Positions 7,822 through 34,054 of a DNA stretch of 34,054 nucleotides are shown one piece after another. This DNA is from Parvibaculum sp. (GTDB taxonomy: Bacteria > Pseudomonadota > Alphaproteobacteria > Parvibaculales > Parvibaculaceae), in the NCBI RefSeq assembly GCF_002684405.1, contig NZ_NYVD01000001.1:1-34054 (forward strand). The letters run 5' to 3'. Made by a program: the position numbers and the translations under genes. The notes under the pieces are model-generated. The model ran no database searches. It was given only the letters and a program-made list of their open reading frames with translations, and was not told where the DNA came from. Within the stretch, counting starts at the first letter, position 1. Each line of letters starts with the position of its first letter.

Positions 7822-7832
7822 GACATTCTCCG

Positions 7833-8783: not shown

Positions 8784-8785
8784 GT

Positions 8786-16706: not shown

Positions 16707-19622
16707 TTAGATATTCAGCTGAATCTGGCGATCGCCGCTTGTGTCGTGGATTGCCGCAGCTTGCCGTGTCAGTTCTGTCCAGTCGGCGATCAATGCGTTG
16801 TAGGCCGTGGCCTCCTTCGCATCCTTCCGCTTGTTGGCGCTAATGTCGTAGAGGCAGTAGGCGAGATCCTTCACGGCCTCGGCCTTCGTATTGATCCTCC
16901 TTAACAGCACGGCGGTATCGTGCGAAATCCCATCCCGCTCATGCTGTCGGACCAGATGCTGGAGACACTCCCACACTGTCAGGTGACGGTCGTCTTCCGG
17001 GTGCCAATCGTTGTTCAACTCGTCGCGCGTAAGTATACGAACCTTGCCGGCGGCGCTTTCCACGATCCCGGCGTGCTTCACACTCTCCACCGAAATTCCG
17101 CGGGCGCGGGCGAGGTTATCCGCTATGCCGTAGTCGCCCTTACCCACCCCGTTCTGCTCAAACCAGGTGATGGCAAAACGGGTGTCGGCGTCAAACTCGC
17201 CCTGTATGCCGCCGAGATAATCGTCGAGCTCGGCATTGATCAGCTGCAGTGCGGTCTTGACCGTCATCGGGCTGTCGTCGGCCTCGAGTACAGCAGTGTA
17301 GCGCGAGAAGACGCCCATGCCGGGGCCGATGGCCGATTGCGGCATGTCGGCCGGAGCAATGTTCGCAGCCTGAAGCTCGGCGATGGCCGCGGGCAGTTCG
17401 CGCTTTAAGGCGCGAATGAACTCGGCGCGGGTGATGGTGTCGGCGACGCTCGACCGCACACGGCAAGATAGAACAACAGAGTTTGCAAGTGCGTTCGTGC
17501 CAACGGCGATCATGCGACCAGGTTTCTCCGTTCGCATTGGCCAAGTAGCATTGATCTCATAGCCGGACTCAATAACTGCTTGAATGAAAGTTGCCCAGCC
17601 AGTCGAGACAATGCCCTGGTCTTCAATTTCGCTCTGCTTGAACGCATAGTATATTGCAGTAGGAAACTGCGGTGAGCTCTGCTCGACCATGTTCTCCACG
17701 GCAAGCTTCATGCCGGACAGAAAGAATCCTTCTGCCTTTTCGCTCCCGCCATGCCGATAAGGCGCGGCAATGAGTTCCTCATTCTTTGGCACCGCAAGAG
17801 TCCCGGTAATCTCGGGAAAAATCTCCCGCGTGTTTCGACGAAGCCAAACAAAGAAGAAGTCGGAAAGGTCAGCGTACGTGATATTGTCGTAGTAAGGGGG
17901 ATCGCTGGAGACGACTGATGGACCCGGATACCGAACACTCTGTGCATCCCCTTGGGAAACTTGACCTCGTGCAGCAGGGCAAAACGCACCAAGGGACTTG
18001 TAGACCCACTCTACGGATGCGTTTGTCCAGTTTCCGTTACTGTTGCTGAATGGATTGAGCTCAACAAAGTCCCAGACCATAGGCAAAGCCTGTCTCGAGA
18101 AGGTGCTTCTTGAGGCCTCAACGGAATTTCGCCAGCTTACTTGCGCACTCCACGCATCTGCGCTCCGATCAATTGCGAAAGCTAAGTAGACACTGACAGC
18201 TTCTGCATATGCTCTTGCTCCGCTACCGCCTTGATGAAGCGGGGAATCATCTACTGCGCGACCTGAATTCAACGCGTCCGCCACGATCCGCTCACGAACT
18301 TCCTTCAGAAGATCGCAGAACACATTCAACGTAACCAGCTGCCTGTCTGTGAAAAGGTCTCCGAAGCGGGTCAAACCATAGTCAACTGTCCAAAAATTCC
18401 GTGGATCGTTGGGCAAGCTGGTATCCGGTTTCCAATTCGGGCTCTCTGAGCGAGCTCGGCTTACGTGTTCTGCATTTGGGGCCACGTAGATACGCCGCCC
18501 CTTGCCTTCAGCCGCGATCCCGATGAGCACCGTGCTCATCTTGCCGGATTTCCCCATGTTCTTGACGTAGTCAGGAGTAATCGCCGTGTCGGAGATAAGG
18601 CAGCGGAAATTGGCGCCGCGACCTGCCTTTGTCCCATCCTTAGCCTTTGCGATTTCGGCTTTGCTCCCGCGCTCACGGATACGATAGGAAATGCTCTTCG
18701 CTTGCCGATCCACTATCGGCTCGATCCAAGCCTCTTTACCCGCCTTTGAGCTCAAGAGAAAACTTGATGCGATAGGGACCTGAACGTCTGAGAATGCCGG
18801 ATCGGGGCTCGGCACCGTACGTGCCCAAAACCACGCAATCACAGCGCCCTTGCCGCCGCCGTACTCCTTCGGCAGGTCCACCTGCGGGTAGAGATGCCCG
18901 ATGCGCTCCCACGCCTTCTCCCGCATCCATTCGCCGTAGTATTTCACGTCCTCGGCCAGCCCCTCGGCGTTGCGGTAGAACGACCGCTCCTTGATGCCGG
19001 GGTGGATGGGGGGCATGTCCCTGAACTTCGGCGGGATCTCGATCATCGCCTTGCCGATCATCACTGCCACGGGGTTCAGGTCGGACCCATAGGCGGGCAA
19101 TCCCAGCCGCTGCGCCTCGAGCGGGATAGACCCGCCGCCCGAGAACGGGTCATAGACCGGGGGCAGCTCGCCGCCGCAGCTGCGCCGGATCTCGGCCCGC
19201 GCGCGTTCCAGCACCTCCTCGTTGGTCGAGTTCTCCCACTTCACCAGGTCCTCGATGATAGCGAAGAGCCGCTTGCGCTCGATCTCGACCGTCACGTCCT
19301 CTATCGTCGGCTCCGGTGTAACCGCCGCCGTCCCCTGCGCCGAAGCCTTGCTCTTCTCCCAAGCAGCGAAACGTTCCGGTAGTTCCGCTTCCGCCTGAGC
19401 ACGGAGTTTCGAGTCGGCGAGCAGTTCTTCGACGTGAGAGGAAGGATCGTCGACGAGTTGGGCGAAAAGAACAGCTCGACACGCTGCCAACGGCCGTCGC
19501 GCCCACCACAGATGCAGCGTTGATGGATGGCCGTGCCTGATCGACTTCTCGCGCGCAGAGGCCGCATTGATCGCTTCGAGCGGAATGGCGACTTCGATGA
19601 GTTTCTTTTTGTAAGTTGTCAC
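16707..19622 (-). CDS. DUF1156-type DNA methyltransferase
   Basis: A 971-aa S-adenosylmethionine-dependent DNA methylase. It opens with the DUF1156 region (LIEVAIPLEAINAASAREKS, then HGHPSTLHLWWARRPLAACR). The SAM-binding motif DPFSGGGSIPLEA lies near residue 156, with SDLNPVAV after it. The catalytic DPPYYD is near residue 570, typical of N6-adenine or N4-cytosine enzymes. The C-terminal part after ~725 has no motif I can name. The start is GTG at 19622: GAGG lies seven bases upstream and the codon overlaps the previous stop as GTGA. An upstream ATG at 19640 is less likely. G+C falls to 50-52 % at ~17450-18780 against 60-67 % on both flanks, so the middle of the gene looks exchanged. The expected role is host DNA marking for the operon's restriction activity. 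Confidence 0.88.
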   Translation of the reverse strand: MTTYKKKLIEVAIPLEAINAASAREKSIRHGHPSTLHLWWARRPLAACRAVLFAQLVDDPSSHVEELLADSKLRAQAEAELPERFAAWEKSKASAQGTAAVTPEPTIEDVTVEIERKRLFAIIEDLVKWENSTNEEVLERARAEIRRSCGGELPPVYDPFSGGGSIPLEAQRLGLPAYGSDLNPVAVMIGKAMIEIPPKFRDMPPIHPGIKERSFYRNAEGLAEDVKYYGEWMREKAWERIGHLYPQVDLPKEYGGGKGAVIAWFWARTVPSPDPAFSDVQVPIASSFLLSSKAGKEAWIEPIVDRQAKSISYRIRERGSKAEIAKAKDGTKAGRGANFRCLISDTAITPDYVKNMGKSGKMSTVLIGIAAEGKGRRIYVAPNAEHVSRARSESPNWKPDTSLPNDPRNFWTVDYGLTRFGDLFTDRQLVTLNVFCDLLKEVRERIVADALNSGRAVDDSPLHQGGSGARAYAEAVSVYLAFAIDRSADAWSAQVSWRNSVEASRSTFSRQALPMVWDFVELNPFSNSNGNWTNASVEWVYKSLGAFCPAARGQVSQGDAQSVRYPGPSVVSSDPPYYDNITYADLSDFFFVWLRRNTREIFPEITGTLAVPKNEELIAAPYRHGGSEKAEGFFLSGMKLAVENMVEQSSPQFPTAIYYAFKQSEIEDQGIVSTGWATFIQAVIESGYEINATWPMRTEKPGRMIAVGTNALANSVVLSCRVRSSVADTITRAEFIRALKRELPAAIAELQAANIAPADMPQSAIGPGMGVFSRYTAVLEADDSPMTVKTALQLINAELDDYLGGIQGEFDADTRFAITWFEQNGVGKGDYGIADNLARARGISVESVKHAGIVESAAGKVRILTRDELNNDWHPEDDRHLTVWECLQHLVRQHERDGISHDTAVLLRRINTKAEAVKDLAYCLYDISANKRKDAKEATAYNALIADWTELTRQAAAIHDTSGDRQIQLNI

Positions 19623-20911
19623 AGTTCCACCTCGATCCATTCGAAATCAGGAAACGGCTCGCCCGGACGCCGAAGCCTTAGCTCGCCCATCAAGGAACCG
19701 TCAGAAAAAACACTGCCGTAAAATGTCCCGCCATCCAGATCGGCGGGCGTGTCTCGCCGCTCCGACGGCTCCAACGCCATCAACTCTGAAGCACCAACCG
19801 TTTGTGCCGTCGAACTCAGGGCGCGTAGGACTTTCAGATCAAGGCCGACAAGTTCGATGTCGATGCCATTCCGGAACCAGGGGAAAGGCCAAAACCGCCA
19901 GTCTCGGAATTCATCCCAGAATTCGCGGCTAGACAGGTCGGGATACCTCGGCGCCACGGATGCGATGCTGACGGCATATTGGTGTCCACCCACGGAAAGT
20001 AGAGGAAACTCGTATCGCCGCGGCTCCCCGTCGCCTTCCCGAAGCCGAGCAGCCGCGTTGTCCAATCCCATCAGCGATAGCCACGAGGCATAATTGGCCC
20101 TGCGAACCGTGTCGCGGGGGAATTCGACAGGATTTTCAGGGACCTCCGGTTCAGGGTCGACGAAAGCTATGAGCGATGTCTCGCCGGAAGTATCTCCGGT
20201 TTCCCGTAGGAAGGTGCCAATCGCAAAGCTCTTGATTGGCTGGGGGTTAATATGCTTATCCCAACCGTCGAGCTGGGTCAGTCCTTCCCTTAGAGCCCCT
20301 TTGATGGGCGGCTTCCGTCCAGGAGTCGTGAACCCACCCTTGGACTCGGCGAGCACCCATTCCTGTAGCGCGTTTTCAGCGATGAAGTCTGGTGCCTTCG
20401 TTTTGTCTGCTGGCCATTGCTTATTTTGCGTGGCGGCGCGTTTTTTCCATTCGGTTTCAAAGCGACCGACATAGGCATAGCCGTTGTCCTCCAGGAGGAG
20501 TAGAGCCATACCTTGTCCAATCCGACCTGCTATGCCAGTGCCGGCGAAGTCAGCATAGAAATTTGACATGCCCTCGTTCAGGCACCACTCGCTCGCGCTC
20601 CAATCGAACAGGTGGCCGTTTTCGAGAAGAAACCCGGTAGCCCCTACCCACCGGATTGGCGCGGCTGGCCACCGCAAGCAATCAGCCTTCTTGACTGCGT
20701 GCGCGAGACGCCAGGCACTGAAATTCACGGTGCCCGATGCTTTAGGTAGCGGTCGTGTACGACCGTGGGGCCGCTCCACCTTGGCCTTCGCCAATTCGTG
20801 GACGGGGAGGTTGCTGTGCCCGTTAAACGCTCGAAGGACCCGTCTGGAAACGGCACCCCAACGAGCCATGTGGTCGGGCGGCGATGCCGTAGGGCTAGTC
20901 GTCGAGGTCAT
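19619..20911 (-). CDS. Unknown protein with PD-(D/E)XK-like nuclease signature
   Basis: A 430-aa soluble protein of no family I recognise. A helical stretch (GIAGRIGQGMALLLLEDNGY, 126-145) is followed by PDFIAE (Asp175), then VLAESKG with Glu189-x-Lys191, and a downstream Gln in GLTQLDGW. The order helix-D-ExK-Q is that of PD-(D/E)XK nucleases, here with D-to-E spacing of 14 residues. The rest is beta-rich, with many Trp (DEFRDWRFWPFPWF). Its start overlaps the end of the sacsin-like gene by 17 nt and its stop overlaps the methylase GTG, so it is integral to the operon. It may be the cutting subunit. The absence of a second ExK-like candidate supports the assignment, but the fold is unproven. 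Confidence 0.72.
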   Translation of the reverse strand: MTSTTSPTASPPDHMARWGAVSRRVLRAFNGHSNLPVHELAKAKVERPHGRTRPLPKASGTVNFSAWRLAHAVKKADCLRWPAAPIRWVGATGFLLENGHLFDWSASEWCLNEGMSNFYADFAGTGIAGRIGQGMALLLLEDNGYAYVGRFETEWKKRAATQNKQWPADKTKAPDFIAENALQEWVLAESKGGFTTPGRKPPIKGALREGLTQLDGWDKHINPQPIKSFAIGTFLRETGDTSGETSLIAFVDPEPEVPENPVEFPRDTVRRANYASWLSLMGLDNAAARLREGDGEPRRYEFPLLSVGGHQYAVSIASVAPRYPDLSSREFWDEFRDWRFWPFPWFRNGIDIELVGLDLKVLRALSSTAQTVGASELMALEPSERRDTPADLDGGTFYGSVFSDGSLMGELRLRRPGEPFPDFEWIEVEL

Positions 20912-23900
20912 AAACGAGCCTGTAGGTTGCCGGATGAATGGTGATCTCTCCGCCGTCGCGCAGCGCGCGTAGGTGAGTCCCCGTCATCTCGACGGGCTCA
21001 CCCTCCGGGTTGACGAGAATGAATGAGTAGATGTCCGGCTTCTGATCGAGCAGGCCCCAAATGTCAGCTTCGATCTGAAGCGCGTCGCGCTCCAGACAGT
21101 GTTCCTTCGGATAGTAGTGACACAACACTTCGCCGCTCGCCGAGCGGCGCTCCCAGGGAAATCTCGCGCCATTGGCGCGGCCGATCCAGCTTCCGTCCGA
21201 ATTGAAAAAGCGGTCGTCGCCATCGGCCTTGTACCCGCGAGCGAGCGCGAAACGCGCCATGACACTGGGGCGAGGCGGCTTCGGAGCCGCACGAGGCTTG
21301 GTGACGATTTCATCGTCAATCAAGCCATGATCCGGCTCCATGGGCTGCTGCTCGGGTTCGGGTGGTGTGGCTAGCTCATCGTCCTCCGATAGTCGGGTTC
21401 CGTCCATCGCGGTCGACGCAACATCCACGCCGGCCTCCACGAAAGACTCGTCTACTACATCATCGTCAATCGGCTCGGCTTCGGGCGGATGTTCGACAAC
21501 CGGCGCAATAACCTTTTGCTCCGGACCAAGCGTGAAGTTTTCCTCGAGGTAATCCTTGATGTCCTCGGGCGACCGATCGAACGCATAAGCCAAGGCCGCG
21601 CGGATATCGGTAGTCAGGTTCTTTCCTATCTCCTCGGGCACGCGCTTGGCGAGCTTCGCCTTCGGTATTGGACTGACAAACAGTTGGCGGTCCAACCACA
21701 GGACATCAGTAAGCCGTGCAGTGCCCGCGGGGACACCATCAAGGTAGGGAATGACCTCCAGCTTGGGCGCCTGGACCCAGCTCGTCGCCGCGATCGCTTC
21801 TGCTAGTGCTCTCACCCGATCGGTGTCGGCGGGATCAGCAAACTCGATCCGCCCGAGCTGAACTCCAAACGCTGTCAACCAGGCCCGCCGGTCTTCCAGA
21901 CCCGCAAGTGACGGAGGTTGGTTGAATCGCTCTTCGACAAGGTCCGACAGTGCAGCCATTGACGCGAACGGCACAGCCTGAACCGTGTCGGCCGAGAGCT
22001 GACGGAGATCCGCAGTCCTGCGTTTTACCCAATCATGGAGGTGCCCGTAAGTGAACAGGCTCTGCATACTGAGCGTGTACTTGAGTGTGTCCACCGGAAC
22101 CCACTCGCCCAGCAAGTTCACCCAGTGGCCGCACTCTTCCCAGATTCGTGTGGGGTAGCGTCCCAGTAAGGTGCGAACGCGGCGCGCATCGTCGGGCAAC
22201 AGCACCTTTTCTGATTCCAGAGTACCCAGCCATTGCAGGGCCAGGTCTGCTGACGGGCGATCAGCGACACCGATGCGCCGCCATAGGCTGAGATCGACCA
22301 CGGAAGCCCGGATTGTCGCAGCGCCAGGAACATCCTCTTCATCCCCGGATAGGAACACACCACCGGCCGTTACCCACGTGCCGTCGTGGGCGAGAATGAG
22401 TTTCTCGGTCCTGAAGGCATCCCTGATGTTCTGCGCGTCCGTGGTCGAGCTTCCGTCAAACATCTGATCGAGACGGCGATACCATTTCTCGACTTCGTGG
22501 GTCGGAGCCCTGTCCGACTTCGCCAAGGCGCGCAATCGGTCGAGCAAGCGCTCGGGGCCGCTCGGTGCATTCCGGACGCCAATCAGGTCCAGCAGCGGGC
22601 GGGTCGTTTCCCGGTCGAGCAGCCCATGCACGAAGGGCTCGACATCGATCAGCGCTTCCGTCTCCGGGGTGCGCCGCAAAAGATCGCCGGGTTTGTGCAG
22701 AAAGCCCCGCACATCGCGAAGGCACGGTAGCTCCCGGAGCCGCGAGGCCCACATCGGAAGTAGACCACGACGCAATACAGTTCGTCGATGGCCGTTAGAA
22801 GCTTCCTCGACGATTGTCGCAGATGCCTTCTGTGACCAGAAATCGCTCTTCTCCGCAATCAGCCTCTCCGCGACGGCGGCCCATATGCCGTCGTCCGTCT
22901 TTGCTGCGCGCTGCCAATGAGTCCAAAGCTCGGCTGGAAAGTCCCAATCGTGAACATGGAACCAGGGGTCCTTGTACCGATACTCAATCCGTCCCGAGAA
23001 TGCTCGCTTCTTCAGCTCGACATTCAGCGAAGACTCACGTCCCGAGAACGTCCGCGTCTCTTCAAGGGGAGGGAATGTCCGCAGCCCTGATTTGCCAGAA
23101 GAGATCCATTGTAGCCACTCGTCGCGGGTACAGGACTTGAAGCTCGCCACATAATCTGGATGCAGAAACCGTGTTTGCTGGATCGCCTCCGGCAGCAGCT
23201 CCTCCAGCGCGCCATTCTCGTCAAACAGCACGGCCTTTTCGATGGAGCGGAGCGTTCGGTCGGCACTGGCGTACCGGAACGATTCACCGATGGTTACACC
23301 AAGCTTCGCTGCGATCTGGGCAAGCTGGACGCATTCGACCAACTTTGGTTGGCCGGACTTGAAGTAGTCGGCGGCGACGCGTTCGATCACGGCATTAACG
23401 TCGCTGGTCCCGTCAAGGCCGATCTCTTCCAGCACCGCGAAGGCGGCCTCGGCTGTGTCTCCGCGCCCAGTGTCCTTGGCACTTCTGCCGCGGCGCTGTT
23501 CAGCTAAGAAACGCGTCCAGTTCTGGTTAAGTACGATCAGATGGTCGGCTAGGAACTCCCAGTCCTCGTCGGACTGCAGCAGCTTCTTCTCGCCGAGTCG
23601 TACGACTTCCGAGGCTGAGTAGAGCACTTCCTTGCCTTGGACCGGAACGATCCGCAGGCGGTCGGTGTCGTGCCATTGCCAGCCGGTTACCTCGGGCGCG
23701 ATATACGACCACAAATTCAGCAGGTGCCGCCACGTGGACGGTCGGGGGAGATGCTTGCTGCGCAATTGCTCAAGCAGATCGGTTTTCGAAAATTCCTCCA
23801 CTAGGCTCCAATGAACCAGCTTAGTTCGGTCTTTCGACGACACATGCTGGCAGAGCACCGGTCGTGACTGTTCATCGAGCAAGGCCATCGCCTGGTCGGC

Positions 23901-25127
23901 GGGCCAGATATCAAATATCGGCTGTGGGACAGCGATCGCGCCGTTGGCGGCGGCGACCTGACCTGCTTCGGTGAGCAGGACCGGCCGATCCCCGATCGCT
24001 TCGTCAAACGCCAGCTCGACAATGGCGGCACAAGACCCTTCGAGCGTGCTCGCCTCTCGGTCGACGTCCGGGAGAAACCCGTAGGCATCCGCCCTGTCGC
24101 GCGGACTGGCCTTGGTCTGTTCGAGCCACTCTGCCATCGCATTGGCGGCGAGCTCTCCGGCGCGCTTCAGCAGCCAGCGATTGGTCGGCGACGTCTCTGG
24201 ATCCTTGATCTTAAGGCGCGCGGGATCCTGGATGAAGGGAGCGTTGCAGGCGAAGGGAAGCGGGGTCTCAACACCGGTCGGCAGGACCACATAGAGACGT
24301 CCTTTTGCTCCCAGGACGATCTCCACCCGGCAGGGTGGAAAGTCGCCGCCGTCCTCGGCGCCAATCATACGCTCCTTGCGGATCTCGTCGAGCGCATCGA
24401 CCGGAAACTCCTCTTCGGCCGAGCGGACCAGCAGGAAGGGATCATCCGCTTTGTCGTCAAGGGCCATCCATTCGCTATTGGTTATGGGACCCGGGCCGAT
24501 ACTTTGCCAATGCACTGCCTCATCACCGATTTGAAGGCGCCGAATCGTCTTGAAGAAGAGCAGCGACACCGGGCTTTTCAGCCATTCGTCGAGGTTCTTC
24601 TCGACCTCACGGCGCAGCAAAGGATTGGCGATTGCCACCTCGACACGCGTGGTTCCCGATGTGGTGTTCCCACCGTCGATCCAGCGCGGTTCGGTAAACC
24701 GGGTGCGTTCGAAGGCGACAGCGAGCGTCGGCGTGAAAAGTTCAACCCGATCGCCCAGGCTGAATGTGCTCTTGAAGCCTATTCCCCGAAAGCCGATCGT
24801 ATGGAGGGCCCGCTTGTTCGAGTAGCCGAAGCGGCAGATCGACGCGAAATGAGCCTCAATGAAGTCTTCGCCATCATGCTCGAACACGAAGCGATCATTC
24901 TCAATCGATACCCGCGCTTCCTTGGCGCCAGCATCGTCGGCGTTCTGAAGCAGCTCCGAGAGAATGTGTCGCGGGCTTTGCACCTGCTTGAAGAGCTGGT
25001 GCCAAGGACCCGCAAGCTCCGGGTCCGCTTCGAGCTGATCCCAACGTCTCGACGCGCTTTCCCGGATCCGATGAAAATAGTCGGGAGGAGCGGCGGCGCC
25101 GGCCGCTATTTGACGCCCCGCGCTCAT
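20895..25127 (-). CDS. Sacsin-like GHKL ATPase, 1410 aa
   Basis: A very large cytoplasmic protein. The first ~180 residues form a GHKL/HSP90-type ATP-binding module. The N box is LSELLQNADDAGAKEA (near 57), the G1 box is HDGEDF, and the G2 box is GFRGIGFKS. This matches the sacsin/NO-VEIN N-terminal ATPase. About 950 residues without recognisable motifs follow. Next is an acidic Pro-rich linker (~1180-1260, with PIDDDVVDESFVE and PPEPEQQPMEPD) and a C-terminal ~110-residue domain (GSWIGRANGARFPWERR). Such ATPases occur in several bacterial defence loci, but their action is unknown. The start is ATG 25127, overlapping the previous stop as ATGA; GTG at 25136 is an alternative. Confidence 0.85.
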   Translation of the reverse strand: MSAGRQIAAGAAAPPDYFHRIRESASRRWDQLEADPELAGPWHQLFKQVQSPRHILSELLQNADDAGAKEARVSIENDRFVFEHDGEDFIEAHFASICRFGYSNKRALHTIGFRGIGFKSTFSLGDRVELFTPTLAVAFERTRFTEPRWIDGGNTTSGTTRVEVAIANPLLRREVEKNLDEWLKSPVSLLFFKTIRRLQIGDEAVHWQSIGPGPITNSEWMALDDKADDPFLLVRSAEEEFPVDALDEIRKERMIGAEDGGDFPPCRVEIVLGAKGRLYVVLPTGVETPLPFACNAPFIQDPARLKIKDPETSPTNRWLLKRAGELAANAMAEWLEQTKASPRDRADAYGFLPDVDREASTLEGSCAAIVELAFDEAIGDRPVLLTEAGQVAAANGAIAVPQPIFDIWPADQAMALLDEQSRPVLCQHVSSKDRTKLVHWSLVEEFSKTDLLEQLRSKHLPRPSTWRHLLNLWSYIAPEVTGWQWHDTDRLRIVPVQGKEVLYSASEVVRLGEKKLLQSDEDWEFLADHLIVLNQNWTRFLAEQRRGRSAKDTGRGDTAEAAFAVLEEIGLDGTSDVNAVIERVAADYFKSGQPKLVECVQLAQIAAKLGVTIGESFRYASADRTLRSIEKAVLFDENGALEELLPEAIQQTRFLHPDYVASFKSCTRDEWLQWISSGKSGLRTFPPLEETRTFSGRESSLNVELKKRAFSGRIEYRYKDPWFHVHDWDFPAELWTHWQRAAKTDDGIWAAVAERLIAEKSDFWSQKASATIVEEASNGHRRTVLRRGLLPMWASRLRELPCLRDVRGFLHKPGDLLRRTPETEALIDVEPFVHGLLDRETTRPLLDLIGVRNAPSGPERLLDRLRALAKSDRAPTHEVEKWYRRLDQMFDGSSTTDAQNIRDAFRTEKLILAHDGTWVTAGGVFLSGDEEDVPGAATIRASVVDLSLWRRIGVADRPSADLALQWLGTLESEKVLLPDDARRVRTLLGRYPTRIWEECGHWVNLLGEWVPVDTLKYTLSMQSLFTYGHLHDWVKRRTADLRQLSADTVQAVPFASMAALSDLVEERFNQPPSLAGLEDRRAWLTAFGVQLGRIEFADPADTDRVRALAEAIAATSWVQAPKLEVIPYLDGVPAGTARLTDVLWLDRQLFVSPIPKAKLAKRVPEEIGKNLTTDIRAALAYAFDRSPEDIKDYLEENFTLGPEQKVIAPVVEHPPEAEPIDDDVVDESFVEAGVDVASTAMDGTRLSEDDELATPPEPEQQPMEPDHGLIDDEIVTKPRAAPKPPRPSVMARFALARGYKADGDDRFFNSDGSWIGRANGARFPWERRSASGEVLCHYYPKEHCLERDALQIEADIWGLLDQKPDIYSFILVNPEGEPVEMTGTHLRALRDGGEITIHPATYRLVYDLDD

Positions 25128-25615
25128 AGCGGCCACTCAAGTGTTGAGGGAGTGGCCACCAGTTCTGGTCCGCGCGGTGGGGAGCTTTTGCGCCAGCCAC
25201 CCTTGACCGTTTGGATTGCGGAAATCGGCAAGCGTTGCGCGGCAGCCAGTTCGCACAGTTCGGACACGTGCCAAAATACCGCCCAGTGCCCTTGATTATC
25301 CGACGAATATTGCTCCGTGGTCGGGGGGCGATGCATCATGCCTTTTGAATGCTTGCCGTTTCCGCTTTCCTCACAACCGACATACCATCCCACCCAGGAC
25401 ACAATAAAACTGTCCTTCGCCGGCACGTCCTCATGCGACGGATATATGAGGACAGGAACACGCTGACCGGCACGCAGTTCGTCGACTTTGCGGAACAGCT
25501 CCCATTTGCGCGAGCCAAACGCAACGAAACCGGTATTGCCGGAGATTTCGGCTCCCGATTGAAGGTGCTCCAGCGGAACAGGGGCGAGGATGGAGAAATC
25601 CTGGATATCAGTCAC
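25124..25615 (-). CDS. 163-aa protein of unknown function in the defence operon
   Basis: A compact, beta-rich soluble protein with many aromatic residues (FIVSWVGWYVGCEESG, GHWAVFWHVSELCELA). It ends with a basic/Pro tail (VKGGWRKSSPPRGPE). It has no signal peptide, membrane helix or clear catalytic motif. The Trp/Phe-rich strands recall small barrel domains such as EVE/PUA-type readers of modified bases, but the similarity is impressionistic. It lies 9 nt after the helicase and overlaps the sacsin-like gene by 4 nt, so it is under tight co-expression with both. A modified-base reader or specificity factor would fit the context. Confidence 0.7.
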   Translation of the reverse strand: MTDIQDFSILAPVPLEHLQSGAEISGNTGFVAFGSRKWELFRKVDELRAGQRVPVLIYPSHEDVPAKDSFIVSWVGWYVGCEESGNGKHSKGMMHRPPTTEQYSSDNQGHWAVFWHVSELCELAAAQRLPISAIQTVKGGWRKSSPPRGPELVATPSTLEWPL

Positions 25616-25624: not shown

Positions 25625-28600
25625 CTAAGCTGGCTCTTGCGCCCGCTCCAGCAGGCGACGAAGGTCGAATTGAATTGCTGTTTCAAGGAATGACGGCTCC
25701 CGCTCGACGAGCGGGCCACGCACGTAGCGCGGTACATGGGCGAAGCCGTCGGCAACCGCTACGATCGCCAGAATGAATTTCTCCGGCTCGTGCAAGGACG
25801 TGATGACTTCCTGGCGCGTGATCATCACGGAATTTGCACCATCAATTCGACCTTTGACCTCTATGAACCGCAGGTGCCCGGATTTCGGATCATGTGAAGC
25901 AATGTCGTAGCCAACCTTCTGGCCGGAGACATCGACAGGAGCGTGTCCCAGAGCGCGTTCCGCCGCCATCACCGCTTGCATCGCGGCGATCTCGATTTTC
26001 TTGCGAGCTGCGGGGTCTTCCGCGAAATGGTCTCGAACTCGGGGGGCATCCCGCGCGGCCAGAAGGCCATGCGGAATGACCACCATGCCGCCGCGCACTC
26101 GTGGCGGTTGGGATGAAATAAACCGCTCCTGCTCAAGCTGGTCCATCCGGCGCTTCTGCCGCTCCGCGAGCTCCTCGGCACGACGCTGCGCGTTCTGCCA
26201 GTTTAGCCGGGTTCGCTTACCGGCCTTTTCTTCTTCCTTCAGTTCGAAGGCTCGCGAGTCCCAGTAATTGATCTCCTTCTTCAATCGGGCACGGACCTCC
26301 TGCTCGACCTTCTCAACTTCAGGCAACCGGCGGGCCTTGACCTCAGAGACATGTTCCTGGGCCAGTTCCACCGTGGCAAACCTGATCGCAGACTTTTCCA
26401 GTTCGCTGGTCAGCCATTCTTCATCGAGCAGATCACGCACAGCGTCGATCTCTTCTGTCTTTGCCGGTCGCAGGTTGAGATGAGGCGCGAGTCCAGCGTT
26501 GACCGTCTCGCCGGCCCGGTCGATTGCGGCGAACTGGAGCCGCTGCGAGATCACATGCGGCTTCCCTGCGCTTGTGGTCCGGCCGTCCTGTACCGTGTGC
26601 TCCAGAAGGAAGATTGCCGAAATCGCATCGCCCGGATCCGTCTCGTCGACCATGATCGCACCTTGGCGCATGATCTGCTCATATTGCTCGCGGATCAGGC
26701 TGATTACGGCCTCCAGAAGCGGGTGACCGGGACAGACAAATGAAGCGACTGGCTGCTGGTTGATCTGGGCTTTGTCGAAACAAATCCGTTCATATTGTTT
26801 CTGAACAGGCGCTCCGATACCGATCTGCCGATCGCGCTCGCGGATGCGCACCGGAACGTGCGTGATCTCCCAGCGCCCGTCTTCGCGACGCTTGAGACGA
26901 CCACCGAGATGCTGGAACGCCTCAATGAAAAAGCTCTGGATGTGATGAGGCTGGAGCCGCTGCGCTTCGGCACGCTCCATTTCCAGCCGCAGCTCATCGA
27001 CCTTGGCCGCGGGCATTGTGTCGTTGGTCAGCGCGCGCCGCCGAAGCAACTCCAACAGATGGGATTGATCGACTGCTCCATCTACCTGGCGGAAGAGGTG
27101 TGCTTTCACATCCTCCCGCTCGCTGTACTGAACCGCCTGGAAGAGTAGATCCTTGAGCGACGTTCCTTCAAATAGCTCGCCCAGCACATCATAGACGCGA
27201 CCGCCCAATGCCTCCCGCGCCGTCTCCAGTTTTTCAAGGAGCCGCGCATAGACTTCACCTTCGCGCGTGTCAGCCGCCACGAGATTCCACAAGTGACATA
27301 CCTCGGACTGCCCGATTCTGTGGATGCGACCGAACCTCTGCTCGATCTTGTTGGGATTCCATGGAAGGTCGTAGTTGACCATCAGATGCCCGCGCTGAAG
27401 GTTCACGCCCTCGCCGGCCGCGTCGTTTGCGATAAGGACAAGCAGGTCCTTGTCCTGCATGAATCGCTCGATAACTTTTCGACGTTCCTCGCGCGATACA
27501 CCGCCGTGAATCACGTCGACTGCTTCGGGATTGCCGAGGCGCGCACGTACCTTGTCGAGAAGATAGTGAAGCGTGTCTTTGGGTTCTGTGAAGATGATCA
27601 ACTTACGGCGATTGCCCGCCGCGTCAGTCATGAGATCATCGTCGAGAATACGATTGAGTTCGGTCCACTTCGTGTCCACGCCGGAACGCAGGACGCCCAT
27701 GGCTTTGGACTCGAGGTCTTTCAGCGTCTCGACTTCCAGCGCAAGCTGTTCGATCGTCTCAGCCGTCGTTGCGCCGGTCGAAATCAGATCTTCAAGTTCG
27801 TCGATCTCGTCCTGGCCGTATTCCTCGATGTTGCCCAGCATATCGGCGTTGAGCGCCGGCTCGGCGACCCCGGCACGGCGCCCCTTGGCCGCCAGCCGCG
27901 CTTCGCCCAACTCTGTCTCCAAACGCTCGCGACGGCGTTTCAGCGACTGGTAGATTGCTGCCGGAGATGAAGCGAGGCGCCGTTGCAGGATCTGTAATGC
28001 AAAACCAACATTGTTGCGCTTCTTGTTATCCCCTTCAGCAAACCGCTGCACACGGTTCATTTCGGTACGCACATACTCGGTGACGGCAGTATAAAGGGCG
28101 GCCTCGCCTTCAGAGAGCTCGTACTTGACGGTGCGGGCACGACGCGGCGGGAAAAGCGGCCGGCCGTCGAACTTGAGCAATTCCTCCTTCGTCAGCCGCC
28201 TCATCATGTCTTCGGTGTCGGCGTAGTGTACGCCATCCCGGAAACGGCCTTCGAAGCGATCGCCGTCGAGCAGCGCCATGAAGAGTTGGAAGTCCTCCTC
28301 CTTGCCATTGTGTGGGGTCGCCGACATGAGCAGGAGATGACGACAAACTTGCCCAAGCTTCTGCCCGACTTGATAGCGGCGTGTGTATTTCACCTCGCCG
28401 CCAAAATACGTCGCTGACATGCGATGTGCTTCGTCACAGACGATCAGATCCCATTCGCGGGCGCTCATAAGCTTCTCCTGAAGCTCCTCATTGCGCGCCA
28501 ACACATCGAGCCGGACAATCAACCGGTCTCGATCGCTGAACGGGTTGCCCGACCGCGAGGTTTCGATCATGTCACGTGTGAGGATGTCGAATTCCAGATC

Positions 28601-29128
28601 AAATTTTTGCCCGAGTTCGTCTTGCCACTGCTCAACAAGACTGCCAGGCGCGACGATCAGGCATCGTTCGAGATCACTTCGTGCGATCAACTCCTTGATG
28701 AGCAGGCCGGCCATGATCGTCTTACCGGCACCAGGGTCGTCTGCGAGGAGGAAACGCAACGGCTGGCGCGGCAGCATCTCGCCGTATACTGCTGAGATCT
28801 GGTGCGGCAACGGATCGACCAGGCTGGTGTGAATGGCGAGGTAGGGGTCGAAATAGTGTGCCAACTTGATGCGGTTGGCCTCGGTCACGAGACGCAAAAG
28901 CGCGCCATCGGCATCGAACGACCAGGCTCGACCGCTCTGCTCCACCTCAAGGCGATGTTCATCGTCGCGATAGAGGACCGACTCCGCCACCGCTCCGTTA
29001 TGGTCGCGGTAGACGACGTTAATCGCCTGGTCGCCAATCCAGTCGACCGAAACGACATGTACCGGCCTCGCCGAGGCAATACCGCAAATCGACGCGCCGT
29101 TCTTTACGTCCTCGAGTTTTGCACCCAT
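25625..29128 (-). CDS. SNF2-family helicase with C-terminal DUF3883 domain (DrmD-like)
   Basis: A 1167-aa DNA translocase. After a ~100-residue N-terminal region come the SF2 motifs: Q-like PLPHQISAVYGEM, Walker A DDPGAGKT (near 130), DEAH in VCDEAHRMS (near 230), and motif III LMSATPHNG. After a helical insert with a coiled coil (~390-480) the second RecA lobe has VLIANDAAGEGVNLQ and IEQRFGRIHRIGQ. The C-terminus (~1050-1110) is DUF3883/NO-VEIN-like, with GYDIASHDP and FIEVKGR. These form a D...ExK arrangement of a restriction-endonuclease-like fold. The build resembles DrmD of class 1 DISARM and helicases of other methylase-linked systems. GGGGGAAG precedes the ATG by ten bases; the WYL gene ends 25 nt upstream. 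Confidence 0.9.
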   Translation of the reverse strand: MGAKLEDVKNGASICGIASARPVHVVSVDWIGDQAINVVYRDHNGAVAESVLYRDDEHRLEVEQSGRAWSFDADGALLRLVTEANRIKLAHYFDPYLAIHTSLVDPLPHQISAVYGEMLPRQPLRFLLADDPGAGKTIMAGLLIKELIARSDLERCLIVAPGSLVEQWQDELGQKFDLEFDILTRDMIETSRSGNPFSDRDRLIVRLDVLARNEELQEKLMSAREWDLIVCDEAHRMSATYFGGEVKYTRRYQVGQKLGQVCRHLLLMSATPHNGKEEDFQLFMALLDGDRFEGRFRDGVHYADTEDMMRRLTKEELLKFDGRPLFPPRRARTVKYELSEGEAALYTAVTEYVRTEMNRVQRFAEGDNKKRNNVGFALQILQRRLASSPAAIYQSLKRRRERLETELGEARLAAKGRRAGVAEPALNADMLGNIEEYGQDEIDELEDLISTGATTAETIEQLALEVETLKDLESKAMGVLRSGVDTKWTELNRILDDDLMTDAAGNRRKLIIFTEPKDTLHYLLDKVRARLGNPEAVDVIHGGVSREERRKVIERFMQDKDLLVLIANDAAGEGVNLQRGHLMVNYDLPWNPNKIEQRFGRIHRIGQSEVCHLWNLVAADTREGEVYARLLEKLETAREALGGRVYDVLGELFEGTSLKDLLFQAVQYSEREDVKAHLFRQVDGAVDQSHLLELLRRRALTNDTMPAAKVDELRLEMERAEAQRLQPHHIQSFFIEAFQHLGGRLKRREDGRWEITHVPVRIRERDRQIGIGAPVQKQYERICFDKAQINQQPVASFVCPGHPLLEAVISLIREQYEQIMRQGAIMVDETDPGDAISAIFLLEHTVQDGRTTSAGKPHVISQRLQFAAIDRAGETVNAGLAPHLNLRPAKTEEIDAVRDLLDEEWLTSELEKSAIRFATVELAQEHVSEVKARRLPEVEKVEQEVRARLKKEINYWDSRAFELKEEEKAGKRTRLNWQNAQRRAEELAERQKRRMDQLEQERFISSQPPRVRGGMVVIPHGLLAARDAPRVRDHFAEDPAARKKIEIAAMQAVMAAERALGHAPVDVSGQKVGYDIASHDPKSGHLRFIEVKGRIDGANSVMITRQEVITSLHEPEKFILAIVAVADGFAHVPRYVRGPLVEREPSFLETAIQFDLRRLLERAQEPA

Positions 29129-29153: not shown

Positions 29154-30017
29154 TCATAGCTGAAGCTCCGCCTTTTCCAGCGCCGCCTCAGTCTCCTTGC
29201 GGTTTAATGCAACGATATGCTGCGTACGAGGGCTTTGCTTTGCCGCATCCACAAGCAAGCCTAGTCGCTTGAGAACATAGAACAGCATCGCATAGCGAAC
29301 CGAAAGAACGCCGCTCCCGTGGTCGAACCCGTAGTCTTTGGCGACAACTTTTTTCTGGCTCTCCGTCAGATCGGGATGCGGACCGATGACCACGTCGAAA
29401 AAGTTGTTCCACAGCCAGTCCTGCTCGCCAGTTGCACCTGAGTCGCCTTTGCGGCCGACTTCAAGCATCCGTGGCAACAGGAAGTCCTTGAACTTGTGCT
29501 CGAGATGACAATAGGCGCGAACATGCCAACGGAACCCGTCATAGCCAAACGCATGCGGCGTGATCCTTCGCCAAATCGGATCCGGACGAACTTTGTTCAT
29601 AGACTGATAGAAGACATCCACGGAGACGCCTTCGCGCACGGCATCGAGAATCTTGCGCAGAACCTCGATGTCGACATCCCGCTTGGGCGTTAGCGCAACA
29701 TCGGTCTTGGGGAGTTCCGCAATCCAGGAATCATTGGACGGGACGGAGCCTTCGGCAACTGAACGAAGCTGGGCAAGATAGACATAAGGGTCGGGATCCA
29801 GGAAGCGCAGGACAAACTTCTTGGCAGCGACATAGCGCTTGCCGCGCTTGTCATACTCCATGTTTCCGGGCGCCCTCTCCTGATAAAGCGTCAGGTCTTT
29901 CGAAGACTGCGGAATCGACACGCCAAAAAACTCAACGATGTCAGCGCGGTTGATCGAGCCCTCCCAGAACAGGCGAAACTCAATAAATTCAAGCCTTTGC
30001 TCAACACCCCAGCGCAC
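29154..30017 (-). CDS. WYL-domain transcriptional regulator (BrxR/CapW-like)
   Basis: A 287-aa DNA-binding protein that probably represses the operon it heads. The N-terminal winged helix (~18-65: SINRADIVEFFGVSIPQSSK) is followed by a linker and a WYL domain (RRITPHAFGYDGFRWHVRAYC, near 165-185; then KFKDFLLPRMLEV). A C-terminal WCX-like region completes it, as in BrxR and CapW repressors of BREX and CBASS loci. WYL domains are thought to sense nucleic-acid ligands. I chose GTG at 30017 because AGGGAG lies six bases upstream; a TTG at 30038 is in frame but lacks such a site. It is divergent from the AddB-like operon, so one regulator may control both directions. Confidence 0.88.
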   Translation of the reverse strand: MRWGVEQRLEFIEFRLFWEGSINRADIVEFFGVSIPQSSKDLTLYQERAPGNMEYDKRGKRYVAAKKFVLRFLDPDPYVYLAQLRSVAEGSVPSNDSWIAELPKTDVALTPKRDVDIEVLRKILDAVREGVSVDVFYQSMNKVRPDPIWRRITPHAFGYDGFRWHVRAYCHLEHKFKDFLLPRMLEVGRKGDSGATGEQDWLWNNFFDVVIGPHPDLTESQKKVVAKDYGFDHGSGVLSVRYAMLFYVLKRLGLLVDAAKQSPRTQHIVALNRKETEAALEKAELQL

Positions 30018-30168
30018 TCTCGGCTCCCTGATTGCCAAAAACTATACGGCTGGCCGCATCGATGAGACTATAAACTATATGGACATCGCGACCAGTCCGT
30101 GTAATTATTATTCCCATTACGGCCGTTCGTCAACGGCAGAACATCGCTAATTTCCGAAGGAGAGGGTG
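30018..30168. promoter_or_regulatory. Divergent control region between WYL-led and AddB/AddA-like operons
   Basis: An AT-richer 151-nt gap between divergent starts. It has a direct repeat AACTATAYGG at 30040-30049 and 30073-30082, 33 bp apart (about three helical turns), with a third ACTATA at 30067-30072. It also has a perfect inverted repeat GCCGTT-CGTC-AACGGC at 30122-30137 and a looser one, GTAAT-n10-ATTAC, at 30101-30120. TATA-rich elements could serve as -10 boxes for the minus-strand operon. BrxR/CapW proteins bind inverted repeats in such positions, so the repeats are candidate operators. Confidence 0.6.
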
Positions 30169-30312
30169 ATGCCCAAGCGCAGTGCAAACCGTGAGGTCAC
30201 CGGCAAGAAGGCGGCGAGCGCAGCCGCGAAGGTCTTGCGGGACCCAAAAAGCAGCAAGGCCGCCAAGAGCGCGGCAGCGTCGGCGCTGACCCAGCGCCCG
30301 AACAAGAAGTAA
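30169..30312 (+). CDS. 47-aa Lys/Ala-rich basic protein
   Basis: A small gene ahead of the AddB-like gene. The product, starting MPKRSANREVTGKKAAS and ending LTQRPNKK, has about 10 Lys, 4 Arg, 14 Ala and one Glu and one Asp, so it is strongly basic and probably helical or disordered. AAGGAGAGG lies just before the ATG, a near-ideal ribosome-binding site, and the next gene starts 18 nt after the stop. I recall similar short Ala/Lys/Ser-rich proteins ending in a 'SALxQR' pattern in other proteobacteria, without known function. Charge and setting suggest nucleic-acid binding, which is inference. Confidence 0.78.
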   Translation: MPKRSANREVTGKKAASAAAKVLRDPKSSKAAKSAAASALTQRPNKK

Positions 30313-30330
30313 CCCGGAAAGGGGGCAGCG

Positions 30331-32985
30331 ATGACGGCCGCGAAGCGATCCACCCTTGTCGTGTATGGTCGCCTGGCAATGCGGGAGGCCCGCCTTGCGG
30401 CTGCCCGCAGCGGTCAACACGGCCTCCAGATCATGTCGTTCGAACAAGCCGCGGTGCGGCTCGCGGGCGGCTTCGCCCGCGCGATCGACGAAGAGAGTCT
30501 GCGCGCGGCGATCCAGATGGCCCTCCCTGAAACACCGATGGGCGAACTGGAAGATATCAAGATGCTGCCGGGCATGATCGGCGCGGCCGCCGACACACTG
30601 CACAAGGCGTGGCGGGCAGGTATCGATCTTGCCTCCAGGTCAGCTGATCATCCAAGGCTTGAAGCCATCGCTCGCCTGGAAGCCGCTGTTCTCACCGAGC
30701 TTCCGGGCGGCATGATGCGTCCGATCGATATCGTCGCCGCAGCCATCAGCCGGATCACCCATGCGCCCGCCATATTCGGCTCGATGGAAATCGTCGGACT
30801 GACCGAACTGTCTCCCTGCTGGCGGCCTCTGCTGAAGGCGCTCGCCGAGCACATGCCCATGCAATGGACGTCAGGTCCTCGCCCTGTCCCGGCCTGGCTC
30901 AAGGAAAGCGGCGTTGCTGTCGCTCGAGGCGATGCTGAGGCGCCGGCCATTCGATCCGTCAGTGCCGCGACCGCTTACCATGAGGCAGTCGAGACACTGC
31001 GTTGGGTCCGGTCGCTGCTTGCGTCGGGCATATCGCCCGCCGACATTGCCATCGCCACCGCGTCGCCGGCCGACTACGACGATCACTTTCTCGCGCTGCG
31101 CGCCGATGCCAATATCGATTTGCATTTCGTCCATGGCGTCCCGGCCGTCACCACACGTGACGGACAAGCGGCAGCGGCACTCGCCGACATCGTCGTGCGC
31201 GGGCTTTCGCAGTCGCGCTTGCGCCGTCTCGCAGCCCTGTGCCGCAATTCTGCACCTCTGGCTTCCCTTCCTGATGGCTGGATGCGCGTCCTTCCAAGCG
31301 ATGCACCCCTGTCAACGCCGTCCGCCTGGAACCAACTGCTGGCGCGCCTCGCGCCGGACGACTGGCCCGACGGCATGGATCACGCCCCGGTGTTGCGTGC
31401 TGCGGTCGATCTGCTGGCAAAGGGACCGGACGCGGTACAGGAGATCGGTGAAGCCTTCCTTATGGGCCGGGCATTGTCCATCTGGCGCAAAGCCCTTCTG
31501 GCAGGGCCCGCCGGCGCGATCGACAGCACGCTGGAATCACTGAAACAGGATGACGGGCTCGATGCCTCCGTCTCCGTGGCCTGGATGCCGGCCAGCGCCC
31601 TCGCCGCGTCGCCGCGACGCTTCGCTCGGCTGATCGGTCTCAATTCCTCCCGCTGGCCACGCGGGATCGCCGAAGATCGGCTGATCCCGGACCATATCAT
31701 TCCAACGGGCGAGCTCGACCCGCTTCCCGTCAATCTCGCAGATCGCCGTGACTTTGATACGATCCTCGCCACTACGGGCAGCGACGTCGTCCTCTCCCGC
31801 GCTCGACGCGATAGCGACGGCCGGCTGCTGGGTCGCAGCCCCCTCCTCGCCACCTATGACGAGGAAGCCTATCTGCGGCGCAACGCCGTTCCCGCCCATG
31901 CCTTCAGTGAAACCGACCGGCTGTTGGCGCGGCCGCAGGAATTCGCCGCCGATCCCCAGGCATTGAGTGCGCGTTCCTGCTGGCGCGATTGGCGCATGGC
32001 CGATGTGACAGCTCATGATGGCCTGGTCAGGTCCGATCATCCTTTGGTTCTCGCGATCCTCGGGCGGACCCAGTCGGCGAGCTCGCTCAAGACACTGCTG
32101 CGCAGCCCCCTCAATTTCCTCTGGCGCTATGCTCTCGGTTGGAAATCCCCGCAAGGCAGTGCCGAGCCGCTCGTGCTTGACGCCCTGCAAACCGGCGACC
32201 TCATCCATCTGGTGCTCGACCGCGCCCTGCGAAACCTCGAAGCGACGGGCGGCCTGGCGTCGGCCGACGTGGCTGCCATCCAGGCTGCGGTGGACGAAGC
32301 CGCTGGTGCGGTGGCTGCCGAGTGGGAAAGCGAGCGGCCCGTTCCGCCCGCTGTTATCTGGGGCCGGACGCTCGGGGACGCGCGCGCTCTTGCCGGACAG
32401 GCGCTTGCCTATGGCAATGATCATTTGCCGGGCAGCCGATCCTTTGGCGAAGTCCCGTTCGGCGGGTCCGAGCCCAAGTCGGAGGCGGCACTGCCCTGGG
32501 ACGCCAGTGTGCCGGTGATCATCCCCGACACCGGATTTCACATTGCCGGCTATATCGACCGGCTCGACATCGCTGATGACGGCAGCCGGGCACTCGTGCG
32601 CGACTACAAGACCGGCAAGCCGCCCAAAGGCGACATACGCGTGAACGGCGGCCGCGAGCTTCAGCGTTGCCTTTATGCCTTCGCCGTCAAGGCGCTCCTG
32701 GGCGACCACATCGCGATCAGCGCCTCGCTGCTCTATCCGCGTGAACCGCTTGATCTCCAGCTCGACGAGCCGGAGATCGTCCTGGCGGAGATCAAGGCAT
32801 ATCTGCGGGCGGCGAGAACCGCCTTGGTCAGCGGCGCTGCACTGCCCGGGCCGGATACGGGAAGCGACTATGACGATCTCGCCTTTGCCCTGCCGGCAAA
32901 CGCAGGCGCCACCTACTGCAAACGCAAACAAGCCGCCTCGACTGAGCGGCTCAGCGAGGTCGCGCCGATCTGGGAGGCGGAATGA
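30331..32985 (+). CDS. AddB-like PD-(D/E)XK nuclease
   Basis: An 884-aa protein resembling AddB/RexB, the partner of AddA in end-processing helicase-nucleases. The N-terminal two thirds have an inactivated helicase-like build without a Walker A. The C-terminal RecB-type nuclease domain is complete: GDLIHLVLDRAL (His626), GYIDRLDI (Asp743), VRDYKTGK (Asp758-Tyr-Lys760) and the QRCLYAF motif (Gln778). Only one Cys (TYCKRKQ) is near the C-terminus, so the AddB iron-sulfur cluster is probably absent. It is shorter than usual chromosomal AddB (~1000 aa), fitting an accessory paralogue. GGGGGCAG lies upstream of the ATG. Its stop overlaps the next start by ATGA. Confidence 0.85.
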   Translation: MTAAKRSTLVVYGRLAMREARLAAARSGQHGLQIMSFEQAAVRLAGGFARAIDEESLRAAIQMALPETPMGELEDIKMLPGMIGAAADTLHKAWRAGIDLASRSADHPRLEAIARLEAAVLTELPGGMMRPIDIVAAAISRITHAPAIFGSMEIVGLTELSPCWRPLLKALAEHMPMQWTSGPRPVPAWLKESGVAVARGDAEAPAIRSVSAATAYHEAVETLRWVRSLLASGISPADIAIATASPADYDDHFLALRADANIDLHFVHGVPAVTTRDGQAAAALADIVVRGLSQSRLRRLAALCRNSAPLASLPDGWMRVLPSDAPLSTPSAWNQLLARLAPDDWPDGMDHAPVLRAAVDLLAKGPDAVQEIGEAFLMGRALSIWRKALLAGPAGAIDSTLESLKQDDGLDASVSVAWMPASALAASPRRFARLIGLNSSRWPRGIAEDRLIPDHIIPTGELDPLPVNLADRRDFDTILATTGSDVVLSRARRDSDGRLLGRSPLLATYDEEAYLRRNAVPAHAFSETDRLLARPQEFAADPQALSARSCWRDWRMADVTAHDGLVRSDHPLVLAILGRTQSASSLKTLLRSPLNFLWRYALGWKSPQGSAEPLVLDALQTGDLIHLVLDRALRNLEATGGLASADVAAIQAAVDEAAGAVAAEWESERPVPPAVIWGRTLGDARALAGQALAYGNDHLPGSRSFGEVPFGGSEPKSEAALPWDASVPVIIPDTGFHIAGYIDRLDIADDGSRALVRDYKTGKPPKGDIRVNGGRELQRCLYAFAVKALLGDHIAISASLLYPREPLDLQLDEPEIVLAEIKAYLRAARTALVSGAALPGPDTGSDYDDLAFALPANAGATYCKRKQAASTERLSEVAPIWEAE

Positions 32986-34054
32986 TGAGCAGCGTGAAAG
33001 TTCTGAATGATGATGGTGCCCGGCATGACGCGATCAGCCGTCACGACCGATCCATTCTGGTTGAGGCCGGCGCGGGATCGGGCAAGACCGCCGTGATGGC
33101 CGGCAGGATCGCTGTCATGCTAGCGCAGGGCGTCACGCCAAGTTCCATCGCGGCAGTCACGTTTACCGAACTGGCGGCCAGCGAGCTCCTCCTGCGCGTT
33201 CGGGATTTCGTCGAAGATCTCGCCGCCGGCCATATCGCACCGGAGCTCCGCGCCGGCCTGCCGGAGGGACTGTCTGCGGCACAGCGCGAGAATCTGATGT
33301 CGGCCAGCACGGCGATCGACGAAATCACCTGCTCGACCATCCACGGCTTCTGCCAGCGATTGATCAAGCCCTACCCGGCGGAAGCGGATATCGATCCGGG
33401 CGCAGCGGTCATCGACCGCAACCAGGCCGATCTCAACTTCCTCGAAATCGTCGATGGCTGGCTGCGCGAACGATTGTCTGGCGATCAGGGCGGTGTCCTC
33501 GCCGAGATGGTGCTGCATAACCCGGGAGAGACCGTCGCTCTGATGCACAAGATCGCCGAAGCCCTCCGGCGGTCGAGGAATCTGGTCGCACCGGAGGCGA
33601 TGCCCTTTGCAGGTCACCTGCAAGCCTTCCAGCAGGCGGCCGACGAACTTTCGGCCTTTATGCAAGGCGCCGGCGTCGATGAGCCGGAAACGGAGGTCTT
33701 CGCCGCGCGCTTTTCTGAAATGGCGGCTGCCCTTCCATCGGCTGCAGATGGTTCCACACCCGCCGGGCTCGTCGGGTTGCTGGTTGCACGCCCGCATCCC
33801 GACCTTACGACCGGGACGGGCAGCTTTTACGCCTACCGCAAGAAGGGCAAATGGGCGGCAGCGGCAAAGCAGGCAGGGCTGTCCAAGGCAGACGGCGACA
33901 GGCTGAACGATACGGCCAGCGGCCTGTACGAGGCGTGCTGTGCCGCGTGGACCGCACTGCTCCAGGCGGTATCCGGCCAGGTCCTTACGATATTGATCGA
34001 CGAAGCACGCACAATCCTTGCGCGCTATCGTGAGCACAAGCGCGCCAGCGCCCA
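32982..34054 (+). CDS. UvrD/RecB/AddA-like helicase, N-terminal part
   Basis: The open reading frame runs off the window end, so only ~357 residues are seen. Walker A GAGSGKT (30-36) sits in ILVEAGAGSGKTAVM. Motif Ia is AAVTFTELAASELLLRV, and the RecB/AddA-specific STIHGFCQRLIKPYPAE is near residue 118. This is a superfamily 1 helicase; a C-terminal nuclease domain, as in AddA, would lie outside. The start at 32982 overlaps the AddB-like stop (ATGA), and GGAGG lies four bases before; the next codon, also ATG (32985), has better spacing. With its partner it should form an end-resecting or DNA-degrading complex. Confidence 0.87.
   Translation, partial: MMSSVKVLNDDGARHDAISRHDRSILVEAGAGSGKTAVMAGRIAVMLAQGVTPSSIAAVTFTELAASELLLRVRDFVEDLAAGHIAPELRAGLPEGLSAAQRENLMSASTAIDEITCSTIHGFCQRLIKPYPAEADIDPGAAVIDRNQADLNFLEIVDGWLRERLSGDQGGVLAEMVLHNPGETVALMHKIAEALRRSRNLVAPEAMPFAGHLQAFQQAADELSAFMQGAGVDEPETEVFAARFSEMAAALPSAADGSTPAGLVGLLVARPHPDLTTGTGSFYAYRKKGKWAAAAKQAGLSKADGDRLNDTASGLYEACCAAWTALLQAVSGQVLTILIDEARTILARYREHKRASA

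Follow-up and report, generated by a model that had tools for sequence, protein, structure and literature searches.

RecBCD and AddAB enzymes are housekeeping barriers to phage DNA, and AddAB enzymes are repair enzymes. Two defence systems have also been reported to share RecBCD as a processing hub, and phage inhibitors to act on it (PMC13192584). WYL/BrxR genes head BREX and other defence operons (PMC9122601, PMC9122589), and a 2026 survey (PMC12839542), in which Hma is classed as a Type-1 BREX-related system, describes auxiliary nucleases of the HNH, HKD, REase, OLD, HEPN, Schlafen and PIN types; AddB, RecB and UvrD are unmentioned in its main text. Here we describe an AddB-like/AddA-like gene pair in a stretch of 34,054 nucleotides (nt) from Parvibaculum sp. 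(contig NZ_NYVD01000001.1, positions 1 to 34,054), the whole of which is called the window below. To judge from the neighbourhoods of its relatives, this pair forms the unchanging part of an alphaproteobacterial defence locus of modular build, in which the attached systems are interchangeable. We favour, with some confidence, the reading that it is a mobile module of AddAB type, which degrades DNA and is co-expressed with any defence system that happens to be linked to it.

An accessory AddAB-type pair

Three consecutive genes point away from a WYL-led Hma operon (Hma being DUF499 and BREX-related):

30169..30312, plus strand: gene of a 47-amino-acid basic protein (ATG at 30169, last codon to 30309, stop to 30312)
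30331..32985, plus strand: AddB-like gene (884 amino acids, ATG start)
32982..34054 in the window, plus strand: AddA-like gene (ATG at 32982), cut at the window end and running to contig position 36378

An earlier note on this DNA had described a tiny basic protein ahead of an 884-residue AddB-like protein translationally coupled to an AddA-like helicase. These open reading frames (ORFs) lie as placed, the AddA-like start overlapping the AddB-like stop by 4 nt. The contig, of 47,526 bases, extends past the window end and yields the whole AddA-like protein (L008:3983-7378, 1131 amino acids, some ambiguous bases).

That the pair is an accessory copy, as the same note supposed, and not the housekeeping enzyme is well supported by sequence comparison, because canonical addAB lies elsewhere in this genome and in every carrier tested. 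The canonical genes occupy separate contigs (C98/C181) in the order nucleotidyltransferase-addB-addA-trxA-folC, the flanking nucleotidyltransferase, trxA and folC having been named by reading ORFs, and the AddB encoded there scores 961 bits on addB_alphas against a cut-off of 486. The canonical gene was present, above the cut-off, in 8 of the 8 carriers tested, this genome among them. Both window proteins fall short of the corresponding models, the AddB-like protein with 21 bits against 486.5 on addB_alphas (TIGR02786) and the AddA-like protein with 194 against 860.8 on addA_alphas (TIGR02784); the cut-off of TIGR03623 (probable DNA repair protein) is likewise missed, at 42.6 against 299.6 bits. 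Around the window AddB-like gene no housekeeping addAB synteny was seen, and housekeeping addAB was rejected as the identity of the pair, the canonical copy with trxA synteny lying elsewhere.

The AddA-like protein is 28% identical to the AddA of its host, and the AddB-like protein aligns to the host AddB around the DYKTG motif only. Such distance from the housekeeping subunits would suit a copy that serves host AddAB as decoy or backup, one that, being divergent, escapes the phage inhibition of the housekeeping enzyme and restores end processing for the linked systems; we rate this as the least probable of the explanations weighed here, and prefer the co-expressed module.

The AddB-like protein comprises a helicase-like N-terminal part, in which no Walker A motif was seen and which is predicted to be inactive, and a C-terminal PD-(D/E)XK nuclease of the RecB family. 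PDDEXK_1 (PF12705) is its sole Pfam match (E 1.4e-18, residues 582-806). The nuclease motifs, noted earlier as complete, proved invariant: G622xxxH626, D743, D758-Y-K760 and Q778xxxY782 are unchanged across 50 homologues. A sequence search against PDB chains gave no match at E<=1, and fold comparison alone succeeded. Because the alignment is shallow, the AlphaFold2 (AF2) model reached moderate confidence (mean predicted local distance difference test, pLDDT, 66); its top PDB match, clearly first, is AddB 4ceh_B (Foldseek E 1.3e-15), with AdnA next. Superposition on 4ceh_B gave a VIA Z of 17.1 over 596 aligned residues at a root-mean-square deviation of 15.9, a value which fits domains shifted relative to one another. 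The iron-sulfur cysteine quartet is absent from the AddB-like alignments, as had been observed. This absence was rejected as the sign of a special enzyme, because the housekeeping AddB of this genome lacks the cysteines too and the alphaproteobacterial housekeeping AddB sequences examined likewise have no C-terminal cysteine. No model in PADLOC (2023), and hence none of its known families, matched the AddB-like protein.

The full-length AddA-like protein matches UvrD-helicase (E 1.8e-46) and UvrD_C and bears the Walker A motif GAGSGKT; with the close L012 copy as query, the top PDB sequence match is AddA 3u44_A (E 3.7e-34). Its C-terminal DWKSD (D-W-K-x-D) and Q..Y motifs are kept across 46 homologues, and the top match to its C-terminal fold is AddA 4ceh_A (E 5.1e-8). 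The pair thus has the broad AddAB make-up, namely a superfamily 1 (SF1) helicase with Walker A and C-terminal nuclease in AddA, and an inactive helicase with a RecB-family nuclease in AddB. Since the motif residues are conserved and the folds match the AddB and AddA nucleases, both nucleases look intact, while the motor is predicted to be single. The accessory complex would therefore probably be DNA-degrading, as the earlier note had it, a part of the claim that rests on motifs and fold.

The 47-residue protein carries a net charge of about +11. About 25 loci have its gene at the same site and of the same length; in relatives, 19-25 nt separate it from the AddB gene that follows. A chance small ORF was rejected by a codon test, pN/pS among 21 same-length homologues being 0.215 in frame and >2 in two other frames. 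Relatives on two plasmids without AddB at that place (L019:9001-9126, L020:9001-9126) head multiubiquitin-ThiF-DUF6527 operons; this small gene therefore leads defence operons of at least two kinds.

Interchangeable neighbours and mobility

For neighbourhood comparison, 80 further AddAB-like loci were collected. A divergent WYL gene lies directly before AddB in 46 of the 91 loci with sufficient upstream sequence (35 of 71 after dereplication), and WYL relatives in this position are 49-92% identical. The pairing with a WYL-led operon raised in the earlier note extends to defence operons of several kinds: behind WYL, the 35 dereplicated loci hold Hma (14), BREX (13), type III restriction-modification (RM) with an HKD-SNF2 helicase (4), Zorya (1) and unclassified genes (3). 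Zorya, one type III RM and two divergent BREX systems were called from PADLOC profiles of individual loci; similarity to these served to assign the remaining type III RM cases. Loci without WYL carry Shango (SngABC) or a UvrD-multiubiquitin-ThiF-DUF6527 set upstream, while a ResIII helicase or Azaca (ZacABC) is found downstream of the AddA-like gene.

AddB copies >90% identical bear different defence systems in many pairs. Relative to Shango-linked plasmids, the DNA is 95% identical over 30346-39728, a span that begins 15 nt into AddB and stops at the end of the helicase gene, and shows no relation outside these limits; in other loci, homology breaks at the AddA end. As the breaks fall at gene ends, the exchange unit is bounded by gene borders.

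Since the pair alone is constant and its flanks change completely, and since 22 of the 71 dereplicated loci were scored as 'other', having no recognised system attached, a stand-alone two-gene defence system could be envisaged, in which the AddB-like and AddA-like proteins share islands and a promoter with other systems but do not cooperate with them. However, the repeated divergent WYL pairing and the conserved, shared element (below) go beyond a random island neighbour, and we regard this explanation as possible but doubtful beside the co-expressed module.

An AddB-like gene, at least partial, occurs in 9 of 385 alphaproteobacterial genomes sampled (about 2%). AddAB-like genes were also found on 64 plasmids (36-97% identity), chiefly of Rhizobiales, Rhodobacterales and Sphingomonadales; 52 of the 64 are conjugative or mobilizable. 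Some copies lie on chromosome-sized contigs, and replicons, relaxases and neighbours vary among the carriers, with no single backbone. By this distribution the pair is horizontally mobile. No match to the AddB-like protein was found among 50,697 phage records, and a phage-borne gene was rejected as an explanation.

A replicon-borne repair or recombination enzyme that maintains the plasmid or conjugative element itself would accord with the repair role of AddAB enzymes, with the plasmid location of most annotated matches and with the nearness of ParB and ArdC. The variety of backbones and the copies on chromosome-sized contigs speak against it, as do constant partners that are defence rather than replication genes and carriers that retain their own addAB. 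We consider this improbable, and return to the co-expressed module.

Several observations concern the surroundings of the pair. Immediately downstream lies one further large gene:

L008:7393-10731 (contig 36392-39730), 15 nt past the AddA-like gene: ResIII/DEAD helicase, 1112 amino acids

By eye, the C-terminus of this helicase resembles a PD-(D/E)XK nuclease (EIADVV...HCKYS). Near copies come after AddAB in Rhodobacterales plasmids, and distant copies are found on many plasmids, Klebsiella included. Past it follow ArdC, an alpha/beta hydrolase, a ParB-like protein and a strawberry-notch-type helicase; the ArdC, ParB-like and strawberry-notch-type genes (L008:10913-18443), some of which also lie near AddAB in L063 and L095, are a piece of mobile element backbone. 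At the opposite end, positions 1-11000 of the window hold copper, cytochrome c and thioredoxin cargo with about 82% identity to Roseibium plasmids, and the window is therefore probably located on a plasmid. Outside the Alphaproteobacteria, a distant AddAB-like pair occupies positions 10513-20152 of L016, a Desulfosarcina plasmid, directly behind nucleotidyltransferase-ThiF-JAB genes. In L081 (3549-7340), a 1263-amino-acid protein with weak matches to the LmuB and mad3 models stands behind a WYL-like gene; the same slot may here be filled by a Lamassu/MADS-like system that has escaped recognition.

The divergent WYL operon and its two-box element

The gap between WYL and AddB holds a conserved element:

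30076..30117, no strand assigned: two-box element TATATGGACA-N13-GTGTAATTATTATTCCCAT

The consensus is TATATGGACA-N14-GTGTAATTATTATTCCCAT, and exact patterns miss the window copy because its gap is 13 nt, not 14. The element is present in 29 of the 35 dereplicated WYL loci and in 0 of 36 other loci; its two boxes show 99% and 89% conservation, against 67% in the spacer. It overlaps a sigma70-like promoter toward AddB (TGGACA-17-AATTAT, 30080-30108) as well as a minus-strand sigma70-like promoter (30133-30104), the promoter scan finding 2 against 0.2 expected. In the 385 genomes of the class, a two-box scan gave 3 matches (two at WYL-AddB, one beside BREX-WYL) and its reversed control 0; among 72,556 plasmids, the 3 with the element are all AddAB-like carriers. 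One locus (L144:1923-2300, G189 contig 4) retains BREX, WYL and the two-box element; its 47-residue-protein gene is broken by an internal stop, and of AddB a short piece of the start is left. It reads as a natural AddAB deletion. Across 12 sampled Hma loci, this WYL family occurs solely in the 3 having AddAB; BrxA, found in 3 genomes of the class sample, was too rare to serve as a BREX control.

We infer that WYL controls the divergent promoter and both operons. The WYL regulator DriD can sense single-stranded DNA (ssDNA; PMC12340889), which offers, by analogy, a lead toward ssDNA sensing by the window WYL.

Several points weigh against the favoured reading of the pair. Firstly, adjacency alone is no proof of cooperation, because defence genes cluster anyway. 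Secondly, WYL sequence tracks the defence system more than AddB over all systems (rho 0.94 for HmaA-WYL vs 0.24 for AddB-WYL, the latter rising to 0.74 within Hma loci), and exchange has therefore occurred mostly between WYL and AddB. Thirdly, shared regulation is not essential, because about half of the loci are without WYL and the two-box element. Lastly, the AddB assignment draws on a model of moderate pLDDT built from a shallow alignment.

In the window, the operon facing the pair reads as follows:

29154..30038, minus strand: WYL-domain regulator, BrxR-like, first gene of the divergent operon (PF13280, E 3.1e-8)
25625..29128, minus strand: HmaA, SNF2 helicase with C-terminal NOV_C domain (PADLOC HmaA, 1594 bits; Pfam)
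20895..25136, minus strand: TmtA-like protein with sacsin/HSP90-type ATPase domain, inside the Hma operon (PADLOC TmtA, 177 bits; NF047352 above cut-off)
16707..19640, minus strand: HmaB, adenine methyltransferase (PADLOC HmaB, 1198 bits)
13399..16695, minus strand: HmaC, DUF499 ATPase with N-terminal HEPN_Swt1 (PADLOC HmaC, 949 bits; Pfam DUF499, HEPN_Swt1)

Helicase, methylase and DUF499 ATPase thus lie within one operon. The divergence of the pair from a defence operon holds as first described, and the neighbouring 'methylase system' does contain a methylase, HmaB; it can now be named more specifically as Hma, the Type-1 BREX-related system (PADLOC; PMC12839542). The interval between HmaA and HmaB (window 19619-25615) encodes the TmtA-like sacsin-type ATPase (1413 amino acids), a 163-amino-acid protein and a 430-amino-acid protein. 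TmtA returns in many AddAB-linked Hma loci, for example L035, L048, L050-L055, L087 and L100.

Proposed role and comparison with known systems

Under the co-expressed module, infection or damage would yield ssDNA or another ligand, to which WYL would respond by altering the divergent promoter; most likely, it would turn on the defence system and the operon of the 47-residue protein, AddB and AddA together through the two-box element. The AddA-like protein would act as motor and one nuclease, and the AddB-like protein as a dead helicase scaffold with the second nuclease. The linked system, which is Hma in the window and BREX, Zorya or type III RM at other loci, may then stall or cut the invader, and the AddAB-like enzyme may load on free or cleaved ends of invader DNA and degrade them, finishing or feeding the attack. 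Enzymatic activity, an anti-invader role (against phage or plasmid) and cooperation with the linked system are all presumed in this scheme.

By analogy with RecBCD, a mobile AddAB could be such a processing hub, carried along. A bolder and distinctly tentative version is a portable inducible hub, in which one AddAB-type enzyme and one WYL divergent promoter would partner Hma, BREX, Zorya, type III RM, Shango or Azaca; the enzyme would break down invader DNA and supply the WYL sensor with ssDNA as a feed-forward signal. A second, mobile AddAB under one switch with exchangeable defence systems would mean that bacteria keep end-degradation as a packaged immune part for reuse. It would also offer a way into how DNA is eliminated by systems such as BREX and Hma and why defence systems do better in combination, and it would open the idea of a shared DNA-processing hub to testing, with a single cassette that nature has placed in many combinations.

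A search of open-licence PMC papers, which did not extend to preprints and closed journals, turned up no specific account of a plasmid-borne or second AddAB in defence. Within that scope, the mobile clade wired to defence, with its plug-in architecture, looks new, while enzymes of this type are known.

With an AddB-like repeat-array system (PMC10910872) the locus shares an AddB-like nuclease with an inactive helicase domain; no direct or tandem repeats were found beside it, and an association of that type was rejected. The UvrD-like helicase motifs resemble GajB of Gabija, and the AddA-like protein matches GajB models over these motifs only; unlike Gabija, the locus is without the OLD/TOPRIM GajA, and its helicase has a nuclease of its own and pairs with an AddB-like protein. 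Housekeeping AddAB (Bacillus subtilis; addA_alphas/addB_alphas) is matched in the addB-addA order, coupled start, AddB and AddA folds, SF1 motor in AddA and a nuclease domain in each subunit. In contrast to it, the window pair is far under both equivalog cut-offs, has an AddB of 884 rather than about 1024 residues, and is mobile, placed in defence islands and equipped with the 47-residue-protein gene and a WYL divergent promoter. As in the BREX and BREX-related systems of PMC12839542, a nuclease module adjoins a BREX or DUF499 (Hma) core; unlike the nucleases of that survey, the enzyme is a two-subunit AddAB type, common to unrelated systems too. Finally, WYL/BrxR genes head defence operons elsewhere as well, but here the same divergent element faces the AddAB cassette whatever system lies behind.

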